The notes under the pieces are model-generated. The model saw nothing but the letters and a program-made list of their open reading frames with translations. It was not told the origin of the DNA and ran no database searches. The translations under genes were made by a program, and so were the position numbers. This document shows, piece after piece, positions 1-37,000 of a stretch of DNA of 64,000 nt. This stretch comes from Sabellastarte sp. h YS-2021 (Eukaryota; Annelida; Polychaeta; Sabellida; Sabellidae), in assembly GCA_964017235.1 (NCBI GenBank), contig OZ024927.1:58223293-58287292 (forward strand). Reading direction: 5' to 3'. Position 1 is the first letter of the stretch. Each line of letters opens with the position of its first letter.

Positions 1-209
1 TACCAGTCCCAGACTGACACAAGATTCTTGCACGTGCCATGTTCAAGACTGTAGCCGGTTACTGGCTGGTTACTGAGAATGTTGATTGTGTTTAACAGGG
101 TTTTTATTTAGGGGATTTTAGTTATTATTTGAATATATGAGTTGAGTTTAGGACAAGTTTTACAGATAGACACACATTTTACTTTTTAAACTTTTTTTAT
201 TGATATACG

Positions 210-730
210 ATGTATAAGAGGAAAAGAAAGAGCAAGCAGCAGGAGGAGAGGAGAGAAGAGGCTACAGGGGAGGAAACAGCTACTGACTCCAACACTGACA
301 CAATTGTATAGCCTTCAGTACTCCACTCTCCACCTAGTGATGAGATACTGCCTACTACTGAGGCAGCCATTGATGATGAGGAGGAGGAGCAAGAGCAAGG
401 GAGTGCAGCACCTGTAACTTCCAATAACCAACACCACTGCCAAAAAGAACAGCTACTATAACTTCAGATTCACAGACATTGGGGATTTTACCAAAAGCAC
501 CCACGACAACAGCGACAGCTTCAGGTTCAAGCAGCAGCCTGGTTTACTACACACCATCGCAAGTGGGATTTGTACAGGACGAGAGTAGCCATCACAACTT
601 GTCAGGATTTTTTAGTTTCCCCGACATGACAGGAGTTTCAGATGTTAACGTGCCACAAGTATTCATTGCATCACCAGCAATACCTTCAACTTCCCAGCAA
701 CCTCAGCAGCAGCAACAGCCGCCTCGGTAG
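210..730 (+). pseudogene. Harbinger MADF partner protein, internally deleted remnant (copy 1)
   Basis: From the ATG at 210 the frame gives a basic then acidic N-terminus (MYKRKRKSKQQEERRE...) with a TAG at 309-311, then continues acidic in the same frame to about 455. From about 470 a different frame encodes a C-terminus with SLVYYTPSQVGF and SSHHNLSGF, ending in a Gln-rich tail and TAG at 728-730. This C-terminus matches that of the intact 405-residue partner in copy 2 (SFVYYTPSPIGF, SRHNLSG, poly-Gln tail). The whole central MADF DNA-binding domain is missing, so an internal deletion plus a nonsense change have destroyed the gene. In Harbinger elements such a protein normally escorts the transposase to the nucleus and the DNA ends. 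Confidence 0.8.
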
Positions 731-759
731 CCAGCCAGAAACCCAGCCTACCTTACATC

Positions 760-775
760 AGCCCTTTTCAGTGCC
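760..775 (+). promoter_or_regulatory. histone-type 3' stem-loop after partner remnant (degraded)
   Basis: AGCCCT-TTTC-AGTGCC followed by ACCAA starts 29 nt after the stop at 730. It keeps the UUUC loop and the 3' ACCA flank of histone mRNA stem-loops. The stem has two mismatches compared with the perfect version in copy 2 (32175-32190). The A-rich block TTTTAAAAACAAATATTAAGCTG follows about 8 nt after ACCAA and matches the block behind the other three gene ends. Confidence 0.6.
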
Positions 776-1279
776 ACCAATGCTTTTAAAAACAAATATT
801 AAGCTGTGTTGTTAATACTCATCCCTCCCCAAAAACAAGCTCAGTACAAATACTTACAAAAAAAAGTCCAACACTCACACTGACCCCTCAATACACAAAA
901 GTATTACTACATATTTATAACAAAGGCCACATACATAACTTAAAGTAATTTCCCCTATCAAATATGGCTATAGAAATACTAGTTCAATTGCCCCTAGATA
1001 AATAAAAAAAGTTAAAGTTTTAAAGAGCAATAAATCTTTAACAGAAAAAAACCTTAAACAAAATATTAGAAAAAGGGCCCGTTGAGGTCTCCATTTATAA
1101 AGATATATTCAAAATTAGAATGAATATTTGGCTATTATATTTCGGCTATTCTAAATATTCTGAAATTCTTCCAAATTAATTGTGTTGAAGAAATAAATAT
1201 TTGGCTATTTCAAAATTATCTATGTTATTTATTTTTACAATTATTTCCAAAGTCTTTTGGATTACTAAAGGCATTATTA

Positions 1280-1282
1280 TTT

Positions 1283-1313
<31 letters not shown>

Positions 1314-1319
1314 GGGGGG
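1280..1319. repeat. poly-T/poly-G homopolymer junction
   Basis: Thirteen T are followed directly by 27 G. It lies between the convergent genes of Harbinger copy 1. A run of 27 G is a strong quadruplex former and also a classic place for sequencing or assembly error, so the length should not be trusted. Confidence 0.9.
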
Positions 1320-1385
1320 CTTTAAAGTTTTTTTAATGATATGGGTAAACAACAGCAGCTATTAATTGTTTTTGGAAGATTTGGT

Positions 1386-1401
1386 AGTCCTGAAAAGGAC
1401 C
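1386..1401 (-). promoter_or_regulatory. histone-type 3' stem-loop, distal, after transposase remnant
   Basis: On the - strand it reads GGTCCT-TTTC-AGGACT followed by ACCAAAT. That is a six-base-pair stem with one G-U pair, a UUUC loop and an ACCA flank. It starts 52 nt past the transposase stop. The A-rich block CTTCCAAAAACAATTAATAG follows. Confidence 0.65.
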
Positions 1402-1408
1402 AATTTGT

Positions 1409-1424
1409 AGTCCTGAAAAGGACT
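1409..1424 (-). promoter_or_regulatory. histone-type 3' stem-loop, proximal, after transposase remnant
   Basis: On the - strand it reads AGTCCT-TTTC-AGGACT, a perfect six-base-pair stem with a UUUC loop, starting 29 nt past the transposase stop at 1454. It is followed by ACAAA rather than ACCA. Copy 2 also has two stem-loops behind the transposase, so the doubling predates the split between the copies. Confidence 0.65.
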
Positions 1425-1453
1425 GATGTAGGTATGTTGGTATCTGTCTGGAC

Positions 1454-2743
1454 TCAAATCCGGTCATCTTGCCATGGCACAGCACCAGCATTGTTGAAGT
1501 ACTCTTTCATGTAGTCCCTCTGTCTTTTGGCTTCCCTGGATGGATTCCTCTCTGCACCAAGATTTTCACCACCACCAACCAGCTGTCCACCACCAGAGTC
1601 TGGGTCCTCGTAATCCCCTTGTTGCTGTGGACCATGGTTCTGGTACCGGCTCCTCAGTATGTTGTGCAACACTACACATGTCATGACAACGTCTCTCACA
1701 GTCTCTGGTGGAAGTTCTATGGTAGTCAACAGCACCCTGAACCTGTCTGCCAGTATCCCAAATGCATTTTCCACCACTTTTCTTGCCCTTGAAATTCTGT
1801 AGTTTGTAATCATTTCCTGTCTAGTAAGCCCTCTTCTACTGTAGGGTTTGAGCCACTTCAAGGCGCATCATCTGCAAGGATGAAATAACTGACATCCCTC
1901 TGACCTTGGATAATCGGGAAGGCTTGAGGCAACCCCAGGGTCTCGTCTTCAATCATTTCCTTCAGTTGGGAGGCATTAAAAATTTGAGCATCAGAGCATG
2001 ATCAGGCTGTCCCAATGTCCTCCCATCTGAACTTATATTTACCGTCAACTAGTGCCAGCATCATTATGGAGAAGAAGTCCTTGTACTTATGGTAGAGAGT
2101 CCCTGAAATCTTCGGTTTCTTGATGGCTATGTGTTTCCCATCCAAGGCACCAATGGCATGTGGTACGTGCCACCTGACTCTAAATTCTCTTTCGACTTCT
2201 TTCCAGGCATCTGGGGTGGTTGGACATCTCACATATTCACGTAGAAATTCATCTTGGATAGCCCTGCACACTTCCGCCAAATTTAGATATTGAAGACCTG
2301 CCAACCAGAAATTGGTATGATAATAATGACTGGTATGACTCCCCAGTGGCCAAAAGACGTAGAGTAATGGCTAATTTCACTCCAACACTGAGTGGCCCTC
2401 TGTAGTTCATTGCTTGCCTAACCAGGTGTGGGTGGACTCGTGCCTTGATCATTAAAATAATTCTGGGGTCGTCCTTATAAAGTTTGTGAATCCTGGCACA
2501 TCAAAGGCATAAAATTCTGCAAGTAGGTTGTGATATGCCCCGTTTTCTTCACGATGTGTTATGTAAGGCCGGACCCAACATGTGTGCCTCCTTTTGGGCC
2601 TTGCTGGTGCTGGTGGTGGTGGTGGTTGAGGTGGTGGTGTTGGTGGTGATTGCTGCTGGGGTCGAACCCTGATTAGATGCAATCTGGATCTGAATAAAAA
2701 CTGAAAAAGCCCTAACTTGCATCTGAAAATGACGTGGTGGCAT
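1454..2743 (-). pseudogene. PIF/Harbinger DDE transposase, multiply frameshifted (copy 1)
   Basis: It reads right to left from the ATG at 2743 (MPPRHFQMQVRAFSVFIQIQI). The coding sequence can be followed through at least four frame changes and one in-frame stop near 2002. Recognisable blocks are a proline-rich linker, the helix-turn-helix region (LAITLRLLATGESYQSL, VGRSSISKF), the first catalytic Asp in GALDGKHIAIKKP, the second in YFILADDA, and the catalytic Glu in RKVVENAFGI, ending WQDDRI. The order and spacing match copy 2 and the DDE_Tnp_4 family of Harbinger transposases and the domesticated HARBI1. It cannot make a functional enzyme. Confidence 0.88.
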
Positions 2744-2791
2744 CTTGATTTGAGTCCAGACTGTGTAAAACGGTTACAGCTTCAACTGCAG

Positions 2792-2800
2792 CTTTTATAT
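2792..2800 (-). promoter_or_regulatory. TATA box of transposase (copy 1)
   Basis: CTTTTATAT on + reads ATATAAAAG on -, about 49 nt upstream of the transposase ATG. The position suits a short 5' leader. TATA boxes are also found before both genes of copy 2. Confidence 0.5.
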
Positions 2801-2928
2801 CAAAAATTTTGGTAAAAATTTGGTCAAATGTCAAAACAAAAATCGCCATTGCTGCCTGGGGACCCCTGGGGTCATCCTGCGGCTAGTCCCAGGCTGCCTG
2901 GGATGGCCACAGACAGTCTACGGGAGTC

Positions 2929-3008
2929 TTACACCTGTCTTGGGGCAATCGCCGATGAATCATTGGTCTGGTCGCAGGCTGCCTGCGATTGCCCCAAGAC
3001 AGGTGTAA
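2929..3008. repeat. perfect 24-bp inverted repeat in Harbinger subterminal region
   Basis: The arms 2929-2952 and 2985-3008 are exact reverse complements (TTACACCTGTCTTGGGGCAA...). They flank a 32-bp loop rich in CTGCCTGCG. The region lies between the transposase promoter and the right terminus. It may be a protein-binding or fold-back structure, or a by-product of local inverted duplication. Confidence 0.8.
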
Positions 3009-4266
3009 ACCCTGGGTTTGCCTGCGGTTGCCTGCGACAAGTTTGCGACAAATCTTGGTCAGTCGTGGATGATTCCAGGCTTAATCTTGGCTCAGTCTGG
3101 GACTAGTTGTGAGTTAATCAGCAGCAATCTGAGGCAACCACAGGCAGCCTGGGATAAATCTTGAGGCCTGCCCAAGACCAGCAACCGACTACTTGCTCCA
3201 CCCATTTTTGTCAAGAATGTCCAAGATTATACAGCAATAAGGGTCGCAGACTGAGTCGCCAGCCGATTGCTCGGTGGAATGGGGGCATAAGATATAATCA
3301 AGATATTCTCGTGTGTCAGTATTAACATCACAGCAAGCATCATTTCATTATTATGTAAGAATTGCTTTCAGAGGAAAAACCAAAATTTGCCCAATATTAT
3401 GTATCCTGTCCTGTTTTGATAATAACTAGAAGTAAAAATGTTAAATTTTAAGGAGATGAAAGAGAGTTTGCAATGATATCTGAGAAATTTCCGAAGACAA
3501 CAAAAAGAGTTATTTGAAATTTGTCTTAATTTTCTCTTCTAAAATTTCTGGTGGTTTCTAGAATACAGATTATCATTGCAAATGCATGGGACTTTTTGTC
3601 ACGTCAGAATGACGATTCCTGAAATTTATCATCATTTCAATAAACAATAAGTTTTATGAAGGGTGTGGTACAGGAAAAAAGCCCACCATTAAATGTTTTG
3701 GTTGCAAGCAATATCCTGTTACCTTTTCAATTAACGTTTATTTGTGTTTCTTTGAACCAGTAAATATTATTCAGTTGAACCAATAACTTAAGTTAACTTA
3801 ATGATGTTTTCATAACACAAGGATATGTTTCACAGTGTAAACAACATGTGTAATCTTTATTGACCCCAACAAAGCATTTTACAGTGAACAAAATTTATGT
3901 TTTCAAAAACTGAAGGGGTTGTGTATGTCAGCTTATTTTCCTCTTTCCCAAATTACCAGTAAACAAAAAGGGGGCATTATTTTAACCCTTGCCTGCCTGA
4001 GAAAATGATTGGACCCACCTTGAAGAAACAGGCCAATGTTCAATTTAGCGTACTCCTCTGATGTAATCTTCAGGTGGACAAGTCTGAAATGGAATGTACT
4101 GAATAAATCTTTTGCTAAGTTAATAACATTGATTATAAAGATAACAAATCAATGTTTACGAAGTTACCAAGTTCATTATCTTCCAATCTTAGCAAGACTA
4201 AGCCCAAATATATCATTTTACCCCCGTGACTGACTCAGATTAGGACTAATAGGGGTGAGAAGTCAT

Positions 4267-28000: not shown

Positions 28001-31000
28001 TCTCTGAGTGGGGAATACGCACTTTTATTACGTGGTTATAATTGCGATTTTACCATGCTTAAAATTTTGCATGTTTTGTAAATTTAAGCAGATGAAAATA
28101 AGGTATAAGATATCTATGAAAACTCTAAAAAATCTGAACTCAAGAATTTGTTGGAAAGGGTGTTGAAAAGGTATGTGAGTTTTAACATAAATATAGTTTA
28201 ATATAAATTTGAGTTATTTCATTTTCAGTTACCTTCTGTGGAATATAATTAATTAAAGAAGCGTTCACATCCAAAATATTCAACTTTGACCAATTACTGG
28301 CAATTAGACATTTGCAATACACCAAAGAGACAAACAATAATAACTAAAGTGCAAAGAACTCGTAAGTATTTTTGTGTATTTTTGGGTCATTGCTTTGACT
28401 CGGTGCACCCAGCTTTACAACAGCATCATATATTCTTGAGTATGTTGTTAAGTCGTGCTCACTGTGGCTTTTGTAACATTTTTAATGTAATAGAATTTCT
28501 TTTCTTTGTCTGAATTGTCATTATAGTTGTTGAATAGCTTAAAAATTGAAAACATTTCACCTGCTTGTGCAGCTCAAGAGATTCAAGAAGAGGGCCGTCA
28601 TGCTATAGAATCTCCAACCAGTCCAACTATTGCTGATGTTGGTCCAGAAGGCTTCTTGTTAGGTTTGTATTCATATAAATATAAACAGTTGTAATGAGCA
28701 AATGAAATAAAATATTGATGAAATATGTTTCACTGAGGAAATACTGTTATTGACAAGTTACTGTATCCCCCAGATGTGTATATTTTCTTCACAAAATGCC
28801 CTATGTTTTGGTTTCAAATAAATAGATAGATGTAAAAACATTTGGAGCAGTATGTTTATGATTAGCATTTAAACTCACATTAAAAAATGTTTGTTGTAGT
28901 TCTGTTATCTTTCTGGTGAAGTTTATAACATTGTAACACATCATTGACAATGACAACAATGCCCTTTTTCCTTTCAGAGGAAAATGAAGAGAGAGATATG
29001 TTGGACCCAACAGCAAAGTCTGATCCAAAAGTTGAAGAACTGAAAAAGGTTGGCAGACTCATTTAAGTCAGAAAGTTAAAAAAGTTGATGCTTAATGCCC
29101 CTGTTCCACCAAAGGATTAAGCCCCGATCCTGTCGGCGACCCTTAATCGTGCACAGTCGGTTGAAAAAAGACAAAAATGGGCGGGAATACTGGGTCGGTA
29201 CTGAAGTCTGGGATTAAGAACAGATCGTCCCCAGGACGCCTCAGGACACCTCAGGACGCCTCAGGCGGCCGCAGACAGTCCCCGACTGGTCTGGGACTAA
29301 GAACCGACTAAGCCAGTTTTCGGGTCGGTTTCAACCACGATCCTGTCGGACACAAACCGACTGGGTCCCAGGACGCCTCAGGCCTCCTGGGACTAAGAGC
29401 CGACTAACACACGATTAACTACCGGCGTCCTCAGGCCTCCTCAGGCCTCCCCAGACCACGATCCCCGATTATTGTTTTGCAAAGTTGCTGGATTTTCTGG
29501 GTATATATATATAAAATTTGCGATCTAATCATCATTGCTTTTCTAGGAACACACCAGGATGCCACCTTTTAATGGAAGACAGATTCAACAACAACTTAGG
29601 GCTTTCTTGGTTTTTATTCAGTTACAAATAATCATGTATTTCCATTTTTTACGTCAAGCACAGCAACAGCAACCACCACCACCACCACCAGCACCACCAG
29701 CACCCATACAGAGACCTAGAAGAAGGCACAACATGTGGGTCAGGCCATGGCTTCTGCAGAGAGAGGAGAGGGGGGCCTACCACAACATTATGGCTGATCT
29801 GTATGCCACAGACATTCCAGGATTCACCAACTACATGAGGATGACCCCAGAATTCTTTGAAATGATGAAGACCAGACTGGAACCACGTCTAGCCAGGCAG
29901 GCCACCAACTACAGAGCTCCTATCAGTGTTGGGGAGAAGTTAGCCCTCACCATCAGATATCTGGCCACCGGAGAGTCCTACACATCACTATCCTGTCAGT
30001 TCAGGGTTGGAAGATCCACCATTTCCAAGTTTTTACCAGAGGTCTGCAGGGCCTGAGTTCACCAGAGAGTACCTCAAATGTCCTACTACTCCAGATGAGT
30101 GGAAAGAACTGGAAAGGGAATTCAGGATCAGGTGGAATGTTCCACATGCCCTGGGAGCCCTGGATGGAAAGCATGTGGCCCTGAAGAAACCCAAGAACTC
30201 TGGAGCCCTCTACCACAACTACAAGGGGTTCTTTTCCATTGTCATGTTGGCCTTGGTAGATGGGCAGTACAAATTCAGATGGGTGGATGTGGGTACAGAA
30301 GGGTCTTGCTCAGATGCCCAGATATTTAATGCCTCTCAGCTGAAGAGGAGGATTGAAGATGGCAGGATAGGCTTCCCTGACCCAGCTCCTATAACACAGG
30401 GTGGTAGAGATGTCCCCTACTTCATTTTGGCAGATGATGCCTTTGCCCTGAAGACCTGGCTCATGAAACCCTATGGCAGAAGGCTGTTAACAAGGGAGGA
30501 AAGGATTGCCAACTACAGAATATCAAGGGGCAGGAGAGTTGTGGAGAACGCTTTTGGCATCCTTGTGTCAAGATTTAGAGTCATGAGGACCACCATTGAA
30601 CTACCCCCAGAAACAGTTAGAGAAGTGGTCATGACCTGTGTGGTTCTGCACAATATACTCAGAAGCCAGTATCAAGGTCAACCTGCTGGTCAGCAGCCTG
30701 GGGGGGATGATGATGATGTGCCTGGTGATTGTGGATTGATTGGTGGTGCTGCTGGTGGTGGCCAAGACAGAAACCCTGCTAGAGAGGCCAAAAGACAGAG
30801 GGATTACCTGAAGGACTACTTCAATAATGAGGGAGCAGTGGCCTGGCAAGATGGCAGAATATAAGTCCTGTTGCAGTAAACAGTCCTTTTCAGGACTAAC
30901 TATAACAGTCCTTTTCAGGACTACCAAATATTCCAAAAAACAATTAATCAGCTATGTGGACAAACAGACAAACCCCATGCCAAACATAACTTGTACAGAC

Positions 31001-34000
31001 GGACAAACAGACAAACCCCATGCCAAACATAACTTGTTCAGACAGACAAACAGACAAACCCCATGCCAAACATAACTTGTACAGACGGACAAACAGACAA
31101 ACCCCATGCCAAACATAACTTGTTCAGACAGACAAACAGACAAACCCCATGCCAAACATAACTTGTACAGACGGACAAACAGACAAACCCCATGCCAAAC
31201 ATAACTTGTTCAGACAGACAAACAGACAAACCCCATGCCAAACATAACTTGTACAGACGGACAAACAGACAAACCCCATGCCAAACATAACTTGTTCAGA
31301 CAGACAAACAGACAAACCCCATGCCAAACATAACTTGTTCAGACAGACAAACAGACAAACCCCATGCCAAACATAACTTGTTCAGACAGACAAACAGACA
31401 AACACAACTTACTCACCCAACAAACAGACAAACCCACTGTTAAACAAAAGCGAAACACAAAGTGACACATAATATCCTAAATTGAATAATTATTTTATAT
31501 ATTTTCAAATCCACATCATAATTTAAACATTTTTCTTTTTTCATGGCTGGGAAACTTATTTGTAGCAGAAATTATTTTATGGAAATATTCAATTTTAAAT
31601 ATTCATTTGTAATCACAAAAATTTGGAAAATATAACCATGGAACTAGTTTTGCTTTCAATAATGGGGGATTGTGTTTGCTAAATAGTTTGTCAGTTCGTT
31701 GGCATGGGTTCTATCTACTTTTGGGTTTGGGTGTTTGTTGGTTGGTGGTTACTGGGGTTGGTTTTTTTTGGGGTAGTTGGGTATTAGGTTTGGTACTGGG
31801 TTTGTTATTTGGGGGTTATGTTTGGTATTGGGTTTGTCTGTTTGTGGGTTGGTAAGTATGTAATTATGCCTTTTAACTCTAGGGAAGGTGCAAGTGTTGG
31901 ACTTTTCAATTACAGATTTTAAACTATCCCATGGATTTTAATCTAAAAATGGGCTGATTAATGGCCATATTGGGAGTTACTTTTAATATTTTTTTTATGT
32001 GGCCTTTTTGGTTATGTGTAGTACCATGGGTTATTTGTTTCATGTTTGGGGTGGTGTAAGTGTTGGACTTTAATTTTTTTTTTTCTTGTGATAAGTATTT
32101 GTACTGAACTTTTTTGTTTTGGGAGGGGAATTGGAAGAACACGTAGCTGAATAATTGTTTTTGGAAGAATTGGTGGCCCTGAAAAGGGCCTGGCAGGTCA
32201 AAGACCCGCCCTGACTGGATGGCTACTGAGGAGGCTGCTGCTGCTGTTGAGGCGGTGCTGAAGTGGTGATAGTAAAGAGCTGCTGCTGCGGTTGTTGCTG
32301 CTGCTGCTGAGGCTGCTCGACGATCTGTGTTGATGTCAGATCTGGTAGCTGGCTTAAGATTCCACTCAGATTGTGTCTGCTCCCTTCGTCCTGTACAGTT
32401 AGGACAGATGTAGGGTTGCTGAAGCCAATGGGGCTTGGTGTATAGTACACAAAACTGCTGCTAGGTGCTGCTTGAGTGGAACTTGATGCCTGTGGAGTGG
32501 TTGTTGGCAGTAGGCCGACCCTCTGGGACTCCGTGGTAACAGTGGCTGATCTTCTGGGCAATGGCTGACGTCTGCGGTTACTCTTAATATTTTCGATATC
32601 TCTGAATATCTTGCCCTTTAATTCTTCAAATTCTTCTTGAGTCATCTTTTCGGCCTCTGATGCCACGTAGTCAAAGAAGGGCTGCCTGTCTGACTTCTGA
32701 TGCAGAAAACCTGAGATAAGTGTCCTCATCTGCTCAAAGTGTTCGAGAATCTTGGAGTCTGTAGTTGAAACGGGTGTTGATGTAATGATGGACTGACTCC
32801 TCTCCCTCAGGACACTGGACTCGAGGTGTTCTGTGTCAGTAGTTGACCCACGTGATTCGTCCTGCTTGCTGGTATTTGGACTGGCCTCAAAACCTGAACT
32901 TCTATTGGCCCCCTTTCTTCTGATGTGGGTTTTAAGAAAACCCATCTGTTGGTAGACCCAGGACTGTCTCTTGGTCATCTCCCTCGGGGCTTGGCCAGAT
33001 TGGAGCTTAGACAGCTTTTCATAACGGGTTCGCTGGGACTCAAACCACCTTCTCACATCAAAGGGCTGGAGCTTAAGTTCTGCAGATATTTCTGCCCAGA
33101 GAGCCTCTCTTCTATTCCTGTCGTGGAAACGTGAATGTTCCTTGTCATACAGTTCAGGGTGCAGCTTGACGAATTCTACAATGGAAACTTCATCACTGTC
33201 TGTAAAAGTGGCACACACCCTGGCTCTCTTGGCTGAAGAATGGCACTCCGGATCTTCCTCACACCTCTCTTCTTCTTCTGCCACAGCTTCCCCAATAGCT
33301 GGATCTTCCTGAATCTCCTCCTCCTCTCTCCTCTCACTTCCTTCTTCTGTAATAACTTCACTCCTCTCCTCTACTTGACTTTCCTTCTCCCTCTCATCCA
33401 TCTTTTTCCTTCCTCTCTTCCCTCCTTTCTCTTTTCTCATGATCCAGTCGACAAAATAATAAAAAAATAGTAAAATGTGTCTCCTAACTGTGAAATTTGC
33501 CTTAAGCTCAAGTATATAAAATGTAAAATAAAAATTGAAAACCCCTACAAATCAGTGACACACGTCTCTCAGTAGCCAAACAGTCAGTAACAATGACAAA
33601 GTGTGCGCGGTCGCTTATATAGTCCCAGACCTGCTCATTGCCTCGTTTTAATTTCCAACGCGCGGAAAACAGTCGGTTCTTAATCGGTTGTTAGTCCCAG
33701 GCCGCCTGGGGCGTCCTCAGGCCGCCGCAGACTGAAAATGCGTGGTCCCAGGCGTCCTGGGGAGGCCGGTTTGGATCGGTTAGGGTCGGTTACCCTTAGT
33801 CGGTTCTTAGTCCCAGACCTTGATTTTTGGGTCGCAGGACACCGCAGACGGTCTGAGGCTTCCGGGGACTAATGAAACCGACTCACTTTCAGACGCATGA
33901 AATTCATACGCATCATATTTGAGTCTGGGATTAAGAACCGGCCGCCTGGGACTAAGCTACGGAGGTCTGGGACTAAGGGTCGCAGGACGCCTGGGACAAC

Positions 34001-37000
34001 AACCGACTCTGTAAATTTGGGTCTGAGGAGGCCTGAGGACGCCTGGGACTGGACATTTTGTTGACGGCGGGAAATAGGAATCGGTTGTAGTCGTGTGAAA
34101 TATCAAACATGTTTGATTTTTCACACGGCCCCAACCGACCACAACCGACCCTTACAGAAGGTCTGGGACTAAGCAAATATTTCAAACCGACCCCCAAAAA
34201 CCCTTAATCGGGAGCCTTAGTCGTGTGGTGGAACACCCACATTAACATTAATGTAACATTTAATACTTGTATGTGTAGTTCAGTTGACAATCTTTCCAGT
34301 CTCACATTTGAGCCAGACATTTTTACTGTAGGTATTTAAATGTTTTATATTAAATTTTATTTGATGAAGTGAACCTTACTGACATAGAATTATTTATGGT
34401 ATTTCTGGACTTCATGATGAGAAATTGTGTAATTCCATATTTATTAAATTCCATTGATTTAAAAACAGATATTCAGATTAGGACATGAAGACACTGTTTC
34501 ATAAAGTAGCACAAAAATGACAACATAAAGTGCTTAATCTTAATATGGAATAATTCTGTTACATTTAACAACCTTGTAAGTTGTAAATAAGTTCTAATTT
34601 GTCATTGAGAAATATAAATTATCTCATAGTTTCTTTCATTAAATGGTCACACTTGAGCTGTTTCTTCTAGTACACAATCATATGACTGTTTTTAAAAAGT
34701 TTGTCAGTGATTAGCTGCTTTTTCTTTGAAACAATATATCCTTTGTTTTGTAGAGTCTGACAGATTGGATTAATGATGTTCTTGCTGATCACCGCATCAT
34801 TGTCAAAGATTTACAGGAAGATCTCTTTGATGGTCTCATCCTTCAAAAACTGATTGGTAAATCTAATCTTGAGCATATAAAATCAGTGTAAAAGCTTGTG
34901 TTTATTATTAATGTCGCCATCGCCTTCCCGTGATTCTGGGAGGATCACAAGACGATGAGTTCAAGATCATGAGATGCAGTGAGAGGCTTGATTAAAACTT
35001 AACTAGTTTATTAACTATATGTGGTCATACCGTGGCAAAGTTCCAGAACATCAATGACACCTTCACAACCTGTTGGTTTACTCCACACAAAACACCTGGA
35101 AAACACCAGAGTCAGTATCAAATCCACAGTAGTATGAAATCACCTTTGTACGATTCATAATTCAAACTAACTACTTATTATGTCCACCCACTGGGGGGTG
35201 GACATATTATTTTTGCTTTTTCCGCCGTCCGGCGTCACACTTGGTTTCCAGACATTTTAGGCAACAGTTCTTATCCTATCTTTACCAAATTTGGCATGCA
35301 GGTTTATTGGGTTAATAGCTTGTATGGGATTGCTTTTGGTGATGATAGCTCTATAGCTAACTGAGTAATAGCTACTTTGCTACTTTTGAGTATCTCTTTG
35401 GTTTCCAGACATTTTAAGGAATGCTATTAAGCCTATCTTTCTGAAATTTGGTATGGAGGTTCATTGGGTTAATAGCTTGTAGGGGATTGCTTTTGGGGGT
35501 AATTGCTTCATAGATGAGTGAGTAATTAATTAAATAAATGAGTAATTGGCTATTTTGAGTACTGAAAAAGGCAAATGTGCTCATATCTCCTAAACCGTGC
35601 GAGATAGAGCGATTTTGTCGAAATTTTCGACCCACAGGGTATCTAAGGAATGTAATCTTTGCAATTTTCAAAAAATTTTCCCCTCCCCAAAAATGGCGGC
35701 CATTTTGAATTTTCGAATTTTTGCCAAAATTAGGAAAACACAAATTTGCTTCTATCTCCTTAACCGTGTGAGATAGAGCGATTTCGTTGAAATTTTCGAC
35801 CCATAGGGTATCTAAGAAATGTACTCTTGGCAATTTTCAAAAAATTTTCCTCTTCCCAAAAATGGCGGCCATTTTGAATTTTCGAATTTTTGCCAAAAAT
35901 AGAAAAACAAAAATTTGCTTCTATCTTCTTAACCGTGCAAGACAGAGTGACTTCGTCGAAATTTTCGACCCAGCCAATGCAAAAAGGCATGAAGCTGAAA
36001 TAATTTACATGTACACTAATAAATATTTAAGCATCATTGATATATTTTACAAATGAAACAGGGTCTTGTAAGACTACTGTACAATTTTGGCAAAAGGTTC
36101 ATGGGGTGGACATTACATATGATAATGTGTATTCTTCTATGCTATCCTGTTTCTATTCATATGTCGCAGCTACTATCAACAGGGCGTCCTATTTCTAGTT
36201 TACATTAATTTACAGTTATACCAGATAGCGCAGAGTAAAAGGCTTTACCACCATAGAAAATAGAACTAGAAAATAAGACCTTACAATAAAATAAGTTATC
36301 TAAACTTCTAAAACTACAATGTCAACATGTAACTGATAAATAACTGACAACTACAAACCCATTCCGAAATGTATACATTCAGGACTATCCCAGTTAAATT
36401 CTTACTTTGAAATGAATGACTAAAATATCGGAAATTTTTTTTCCCAAGTCAACAAGTCTTGCAAACATATTTTTGTTACTGTTCCTGTGTATCTAGTATC
36501 TACTACCTTGTTAAATAAGGGATTGGTCGGTACCAAAAATGTGAAGATTGGGAGGCCACAAATACTAAATCGTTCTAATTCCAGGATTTTGGAGTTTAGT
36601 ACACCCCAATCAGTTAGGCCCCTGACAGTGAAACACGTGATACTAAATTATTGCAGTTTCCTCTCATCAAAATCAGTGAGCAATAATACTGAAGTTTACA
36701 AACATCGTCCCAGCTCTAGTTAACAAGCGAGAAAGGCAGTTGTAAAATTTCATCATGGTATTTCAGTAAAATTCTCTTGGTACTGAGATACCTTGTTAAG
36801 TGTGAAATTTCCAAGGGTTTTTAACTCCTCTAAACCAATGCACAAATTTTTTTTTTTTCGAAAGTAAAGGGAAATTTACTGAACAGAGTTCTCTTAGTAC
36901 TAGAAAAATGCATACAAACTAGAGTATACATAACAAGACATTTCAGTTCAATGATTTGTAATAAGGATTAAATGAAATCACTATCTGATACATTAATTAA

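Follow-up and report, generated by a model that had tools for sequence, protein, structure and literature searches.

The window analysed here, a 64,000-nucleotide stretch of contig OZ024927.1 from the annelid Sabellastarte sp. h YS-2021, harbors a PIF/Harbinger element (copy 2) with convergent transposase and partner genes and, farther upstream, the remains of a related family (copy 1; Table 1). PIF/Harbinger transposons are defined by a 3-bp TWA target-site duplication and by terminal inverted repeats. Both traits were found here, together with a DDE_Tnp_4-type transposase and, as second gene, one for a MADF (Myb/SANT-like) protein, as in PIF/Harbinger transposons. By-eye inspection of six elements whose two ends were both visible revealed matching TTA or TAA duplications in L032, L051, L054 and L057; L049 showed no match, and the window copy is flanked by TTAA at either end. 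Copy 2 is not intact, because its transposase is split across two reading frames. Among the matches listed for its relatives, 133 of 136 contain no stop codon inside the match, and the open frames are mostly of about 440 amino acids. Neighbours of the partner protein numbered 439 at E ≤ 0.001, and a scan with the transposase found no relatives in viral contigs.

Table 1. Features of the two Harbinger copies in the window, with positions counted from its first nucleotide.
Feature	Position	Strand	Remarks
PIF/Harbinger element, copy 2	about 29096..34241	.	imperfect terminal inverted repeats TGCCCCTGTTCCACCA... / TGTGGGTGTTCCACCA..., read by eye; TTAA at either flank
Transposase, N-terminal part with helix-turn-helix region	29559..30056	+	Pfam matches below cut-off only; frame differs from that of the catalytic part
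Transposase, catalytic part, DDE_Tnp_4	30007..30864	+	PF13359, 113.3 bits (cut-off 24.8)
First transposase-side hairpin, AGTCCT-TTTC-AGGACT	30882..30897	+	upstream tandem copy without ACC and without downstream element; 17 nt past stop
Second transposase-side hairpin, AGTCCT-TTTC-AGGACT, then ACCA	30907..30922	+	RF00032, 33.2 bits (30902-30948; cut-off 34); 42 nt past stop
Histone-downstream-element-like stretch, transposase side, TTCCAAAAAACAATTAATCAGCT	30931..30953	+	match to host histone genes
Histone-downstream-element-like stretch, 3' of partner hairpin, TTCCAAAAACAATTATTCAGCT	32145..32166	-	match to host histone genes
Partner-side hairpin, GGCCCT-TTTC-AGGGCC, then ACCA	32175..32190	-	RF00032, 36.5 bits (32150-32195); 32 nt past stop
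Partner gene, MADF (Myb/SANT-like) DNA-binding domain	32223..33440	-	405 aa, one frame; PF10545, 44 bits (cut-off 22)
Copy 1 (decayed, related family), two tandem transposase-side hairpins	1386..1424	-	second with ACC and downstream element

When both window strands were scanned for perfect 6-bp stems closed by a YT[TA]Y loop, five places were returned, namely the three hairpins of copy 2, the transposase end of copy 1 (1424, -) and one unrelated place (13650, -). When all Rfam families were searched against the whole window at gathering thresholds, the partner-side hairpin was the sole match (RF00032, E 5.4e-7). With the Rfam histone model, which a preliminary description of this DNA had proposed as a check, the partner-side hairpin scores above the cut-off (36.5 versus 34 bits), whereas the transposase hairpin remained 0.8 bits short of it. 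That description had stated that histone-type hairpins close both genes of copy 2 at 17-45 nt past the stop codons, which is right for the distances (17, 42 and 32 nt), the stems and the TTTC loops, but the first transposase hairpin lacks the ACC. Its view that the partner stem matches the histone consensus exactly had to be corrected, as the fourth pair, which is U-A in the Rfam consensus and in host histones, is replaced by C-G in a compensated change. The partner-side hairpin of copy 1, at about 760-775 (+), has lost base pairs. Tandem hairpins are frequent on the transposase side.

The arrangement is like that of replication-dependent histone genes (RF00032), with genes read in one frame that are followed soon after the stop by a 6-bp stem, a 4-nt UUUC loop, ACC and a downstream element. 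Similarly, the distance from stop to hairpin amounts to 31-47 nt in the host histones and to 17-42 nt in the Harbinger genes of the window. In contrast to histone genes, the Harbinger genes code for a transposase and a MADF protein and for no histone, and their stems, AGTCCT for the transposase and GGCCCT for the partner, differ from the host histone stem GGCTCT by compensated pairs. PIF/Harbinger DNA transposons are two-gene elements (PMC2836001, in part), and the copy 2 lineage departs from those described by 3' ends that are predicted from the DNA to be of the histone type. The preliminary description was aware of no DNA transposon with such ends, and searches of the open-access literature brought up no report of one.

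Genomic counts and comparisons cover one genome. Exact 19-mers of stem plus ACC were found 39 times for the histone stem GGCTCT, 1966 times for the partner stem GGCCCT and 3196 times for the transposase stem AGTCCT, and reversed-pattern controls gave 0 genome-wide, by which a chance origin of the hairpins is rejected. Exact stems of the transposon types thereby outnumber exact host-histone stems in the assembly by more than 100 to 1. Of 75 RF00032 matches scored genome-wide, 37 lie inside two histone clusters (25 in fetched loci and 12 assigned by their position in a 1932-bp array), and 36 of the remaining 38 lie in loci with homology to Harbinger transposase or partner (E ≤ 1e-4). As the loci L001-L061 were all picked by an RF00032 match, conservation of the hairpin among them is partly built in. 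Weight was placed on tests in which the gene end had not been picked by its own hairpin, on the genome-wide counts with reversed controls and on a negative control.

In a sample drawn without regard to the hairpin, it is present at 20 of 20 transposase ends, the copies being near-identical relatives and not independent. Among loci that had been picked by the hairpin of the other side, it was present on 19 of 22 transposase ends. Also, all eight listed transposase relatives that lie on C1 at up to 83.1 Mb, among them the window copy, have the exact partner hairpin 1.05-1.31 kb downstream on the opposite strand. A convergent transposase-type mate was found for 46 of 58 partner-type places, at a median of 1041 bp, and divergent and same-strand mates numbered 0 each. 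The negative control consisted of eight further DDE_Tnp_4 transposons in this genome, which resemble the copy 2 lineage in their catalytic domain; unlike that lineage, none of the eight has the hairpin, and six of them have AATAAA or ATTAAA at most 161 nt from the stop. According to the preliminary description, related intact Harbingers without the hairpin would refute its reading. This was encountered in part, in a divergent Harbinger family (L001, L055, L056) whose transposase gene lacks the hairpin and has AATAAA 0-15 nt past its stop, but whose partner gene keeps the hairpin.

Alignment of 31 distinct hairpins revealed that 98.9% of the stem cells are paired and that 17 cells are changed on both sides, as compared to a mean of 4.8 after shuffling, a value that 0 of 500 shuffles reached. 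Such double changes affect three of the six stem pairs; the number of pairs with double changes, which 323 of 500 shuffles reached, and the number of pair types were not above shuffles. The second stem base is G in 31 of 31 aligned hairpins, and this base is contacted by Arg181 of SLBP (PMC10388802, in part). When the 44 nt 3' of the stem were compared to the best host histone, 10 of 11 transposon ends showed 77-86% identity (shuffled maxima 66-73%), and the flanks of the transposon ends were mostly at shuffle level. Host histone genes display a similar pattern when compared with one another. The partner-side element of L034 reached 66%, no better than shuffled sequence, and the transposase-side element of L002 is weak. 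The pattern of the downstream element, CAAAAACAATTAWT.AGCT, is a candidate for pairing with U7. Hairpin and downstream element are kept in several families, and because the gene-specific stems recur in families that share only about 27-60% partner-protein identity with the window copy, the putative histone-type signal looks old in the Harbinger lineage.

With regard to the processing machinery of the host, the SLBP domain PF15247 was found above cut-off in two stretches 11 kb apart (C6:90.39-90.40 Mb), which we read as two exons; the 5' stretch has a TAG inside the match. Neither RF00066 nor pattern searches returned a convincing U7 gene. Among the 20 RF00066 matches listed, the best scored 31 bits (cut-off 34); of the seven inspected, L082-L084 and L099 seem to be copies of a single repeat, and by eye nothing convincing was seen in L100-L102. 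Two pattern searches for the complement of the downstream element plus an Sm-like site returned 29 places each, versus 16 and 18 in reversed controls. Ten of these 58 places were inspected and no U7-like gene was among them; one of the ten, L105, resembles a decayed transposon 3' end in complement.

The hairpins might be functional while the main mRNAs are polyadenylated further downstream, so that histone-type ends would be minor or tissue-specific, and both kinds of 3' end have been reported for one histone gene, H2A.X (PMC7807067, in part). The preliminary description saw no convincing AATAAA behind either gene, and indeed the + strand has none at 30865-33000 and the nearest on the - strand lies about 2.6 kb beyond the partner stop, but ATTAAA is seen roughly 150, 235 and 280 nt after that stop. 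One or the other motif is also present within 170 nt in copy 1 and in three (L038, L040, L051) of the 19 transposase ends that bear the hairpin, and the divergent family has AATAAA directly behind its transposase stop. However, a poly(A) motif by itself says little, because the host H3 gene also carries one near its hairpin. In the 20 sampled transposase ends neither AATAAA nor ATTAAA was found within 300 nt, and several families retain hairpin and downstream element together. We consider predominant polyadenylation improbable.

It is very improbable that a histone 3' end was acquired once by an ancestral element and persists as sequence that now has no role. This would account for the close likeness to host histone 3' ends, for example between the H1-like array and the partner end of L038, but the stems differ from those of host histones through compensated changes, the signal is present on both genes of the element, and across families that share about 27-60% partner identity with the window copy, most flanks are down at shuffle level, unlike stem and downstream element. 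Slightly less probable still is convergence on a histone-like form by element-specific hairpins that are bound by transposase or partner, terminate transcription between the convergent genes or guard against double-stranded RNA. The hairpins do face each other between convergent genes and are often in tandem on the transposase side, but such roles leave the ACC, the spacing and the downstream element common to host histones unexplained, and the eight other DDE_Tnp_4 transposons lack the hairpin.

The reading of the Harbinger gene ends in the window as predicted histone-type 3'-end signals is supported, and it is favoured because of the Rfam matches, the shared downstream element, the stem covariation, the retention in 20 of 20 sampled ends, the histone-like spacing, the one-frame coding in most copies and the SLBP domain of the host. 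Anatomy, match to host histone genes, covariation and retention across copies and families were read directly from the DNA. Very probably, the two genes of this PIF/Harbinger lineage are both equipped with working replication-dependent histone 3'-end signals of the host type, at which SLBP and U7 would form poly(A)-less mRNA ends linked to S phase. SLBP would bind the transposon hairpin, the U7 snRNP would pair with the downstream element, and CPSF73 would cleave between the two. The products would be intronless mRNAs without poly(A) that may share the export, translation and degradation of histone mRNA. In that case, most transposase and partner protein would be synthesized in S phase or from maternally stored mRNAs, and moves from replicated to unreplicated DNA during S phase could raise the copy number.

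We incline, by a narrow preference, to the wider view that a whole lineage of DNA transposons took over the replication-dependent histone mRNA pathway, with thousands of stem-loops recruiting SLBP and U7, with poly(A)-less transposase and partner mRNAs only during replication and with transposition coupled to S phase, which would make these the first such non-histone class of animal genes known. If true, this would be a simple route for a DNA transposon to time itself to S phase. Histone-type ends might also explain the export and the storage in eggs of intronless transposon mRNAs, and the natural variation of hairpins among thousands of copies would constitute a ready-made mutational series for the tolerance of SLBP and U7. 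As poly(A)-selected RNA-seq would miss such 3' ends, the activity of these elements may be under-counted.

The element under study (copy 2) lies in a genome of 1.79 Gb, probably an animal's to judge from its histone, SLBP and transposon genes, and carries two convergent genes separated by a spacer of 1.36 kb, a transposase gene on the + strand (DDE_Tnp_4, 113.3 bits), whose coding sequence is split between two frames in this copy, and a partner gene on the - strand for 405 aa with a MADF domain (44 bits). The terminal repeats, which contain GTTCCACCA, together with TTA/TAA duplications in four of the six elements whose two ends were both covered, assign the element to PIF/Harbinger. As the preliminary description had claimed, both genes end in a histone-type hairpin, with stem, TTTC loop and ACC following each stop codon; a downstream element comes after each. 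Behind the transposase stop AGTCCT-TTTC-AGGACT occurs twice, the second copy being followed by ACC and TTCCAAAAAACAATTAATCAGCT, and behind the partner stop GGCCCT-TTTC-AGGGCC is followed by ACC and TTCCAAAAACAATTATTCAGCT. The Rfam histone3 model (RF00032; cut-off 34), proposed there as a check, recognized the partner end with 36.5 bits; the transposase end, with 33.2 bits, fell under the cut-off.

Features of the window and sequences following the stem and ACC of host histone genes
Feature	Window position	Description
Two-gene element (copy 2)	~29096-34241	Convergent genes
43-bp minisatellite	30959-31403	10.3 copies, 96% matches; just 3' of the transposase-side hairpin, in the spacer
Copy 1	1-3290	Decayed relative of copy 2
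Copy 1, transposase end	1386-1424	Minus strand; two hairpins and downstream element kept
Copy 1, partner-side stem	~760-775	Pairs lost
Open frame of 394 aa	5807-6991	Seven-helix receptor look by eye
Host H4		TTTCAAAAACAATTATTCAGCTG
Host H3		TTCCAAAAACAATTAATAAGCTG
Host H2B, H2A		TTTCAAGAACTTTTATTT(A/G)AGCTA
Host H1-like		TTCCAAAAACAATTAATAGCTA

A protein search with 20,011 candidates gave, among the matches listed, 136 close transposase copies; in 133 of them no stop interrupts the match, and most lie in open frames of ~440 aa. Twenty of these, near-identical and not independent of each other, were read for 300 nt after the match without regard to the hairpin, and all 20 had at least one perfect hairpin, tandemly duplicated to 2-3 copies of a 23-25 nt unit, and lacked AATAAA/ATTAAA within the 300 nt. 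In 18 cases the last hairpin had all pairs intact and a TTTC loop (L077 has a TTTT loop and L062 one broken pair), and ACC and the downstream element come after this last one alone. Loci L039, L040, L051 and L057 have a single transposase-side hairpin. On contig C1 up to 83.1 Mb, all eight listed close copies, the window copy included, have an exact partner-type hairpin on the opposite strand, 1.05-1.31 kb further downstream, and such a hairpin was nearby in six of nine PF13359 matches and in none of the three others, which belong to other score groups.

In loci chosen by the hairpin of the other gene and with a findable transposase tail, 19 of 22 transposase ends carry the hairpin, counting L036 with five of six pairs. 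The stop codon is lost in L038 and L036, and AATAAA or ATTAAA occurs within 170 nt in three of the 19 (L038, L040, L051) and in copy 1. L001, L055 and L056 have no transposase-side hairpin and an AATAAA 0-15 nt 3' of the transposase stop; they represent one divergent, mosaic Harbinger family with a histone-type hairpin on the partner side. Related intact Harbingers lacking the hairpin, named beforehand as evidence against the claim, were thus encountered in part, for the transposase gene of this one family among the loci read, and with AATAAA in its place there, the hairpin arrangement is not obligatory. Nested in the transposase coding region of another hairpin-bearing Harbinger copy lies a short Harbinger-like element whose ends have GTTCCACCA (L035:3850-4800). 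As a negative control, eight high-scoring DDE_Tnp_4 copies of different score groups, not clustered into families, were read over 561 nt each, with the stop assigned to where the longest open frame ended. None showed such a hairpin, and AATAAA/ATTAAA was found within 161 nt of the stop in six, further off in one and not at all in one.

Genome-wide, exact stems with ACC numbered 1027 + 939 for the partner type, 1574 + 1622 for the transposase type and 38 + 1 for the host histone type, with 0 for each reversed control; the histone-type count would miss histone genes with other stems and arrays collapsed in the assembly. The two histone clusters hold 38 of the 39 histone-type places, and the 39th is a lone stem GGCTCTTTTCAGAGCCACC outside both (C8:62488613). 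On C1 up to 51.6 Mb, the part covered by the listed places of both stem types, a convergent transposase-type mate lay within 2.5 kb of 46 of the 58 partner-type places, a divergent or same-strand one of none, and 54 of 100 transposase-type places were without an exact partner-type mate. Six partner-type stem-loops at an exact spacing of 1460 bp (C1:64935297-64942615) are apparently a tandem array from part of the element. The 75 RF00032 matches scored, out of 382,297 first-look candidates, form an incomplete list, because the window's own 36.5-bit match is missing from it; 37 lie in the histone clusters, and Harbinger homology was detected in the loci of 36 of the 38 outside them, L009 and L058 showing no detected transposon homology.

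By tblastn, H2A, H2B, H3 and H4 genes were located at C2:27.6-27.7 Mb, and repeated 1932-bp units at C4:31.4-31.5 Mb were recognized as an H1-like array, with 38% identity to the H1 probe. In nine of ten histone gene matches GGCTCT-TTTC-AGAGCC begins 31-47 nt 3' of the stop, the tenth being cut by the locus end. Host H3 genes also have AATAAA/ATTAAA 26 and 88 nt 3' of the stop, so that such a motif by a hairpin does not exclude histone-type processing. Conservation figures here and below come mostly from RF00032-chosen loci. Over the 44 nt 3' of the stem, 10 of 11 transposon ends matched the best host histone at 77-86% (shuffled maxima 66-73%), and the L034 partner end at just 66%. The 60 nt 5' of the stem slightly exceeded the shuffle maximum in three of the 11 (winT, L055P, L045; up to 70%), the 100 nt beyond the 44-nt stretch in one (67% vs 66%), and the remaining flanks were at shuffle level. 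A comparison among the histone genes gave the same pattern, with 66-93% 3' of the stem and 52-62% further on. Among 14 non-histone ends, including those of L009 and L058, conservation covers the stem and next 40 nt and, apart from comparisons of close relatives, mostly does not reach into the flanks; the downstream part is weak in the L002 transposase end and the L034 partner end.

For 31 distinct hairpins (five host histone and 26 others), 28 of them from RF00032-chosen loci, though often at the end of the other gene, 98.9% of cells pair, and stem pairs 1, 3 and 4 vary on both sides. Double changes affected 17 cells compared to a shuffled mean of 4.8, and 0 of 500 shuffles were as high, which is not a probability because the hairpin sequences are related; the numbers of double-changed pairs (3 vs 2.6) and of pair types (8 vs 7.6) were not above shuffles (323/500). 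With partner columns slid, at best 60% paired. Departures from the main stem types are GGCTCT/AGGGCC at some partner ends and GGCCCT/AGGACC in L058. All 31 aligned hairpins have G as their second stem base; according to PMC10388802, this base (G7) is contacted by Arg181 of SLBP.

The RNA-binding domain of SLBP was matched in two stretches at C6:90.39-90.40 Mb, and RF00066 and pattern searches of the host genome did not identify a U7 gene. U7 is described as pairing with the downstream element and CPSF73 as cleaving between stem and element (PMC7026596), and replication-dependent histone mRNAs as unique among known metazoan mRNAs in lacking poly(A) (PMC10388802). Among the matches listed for open-access literature on histone 3'-end signals and transposons, there was no report of transposon genes with histone-type 3' ends. 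Both transposon stem types recur in loci with partner proteins ~27-60% identical to that of the window (L002, L006, L034, L035; in L034 the gene at the transposase-type stem was not identified), which suggests that the arrangement predates these families. Judging from the DNA sequence of this one genome, SLBP and U7 snRNP would process the transposon transcripts, transposase and partner would be made mainly in S phase, and, as in other DNA transposons, such timing would favour movement out of replicated and into not yet replicated DNA.
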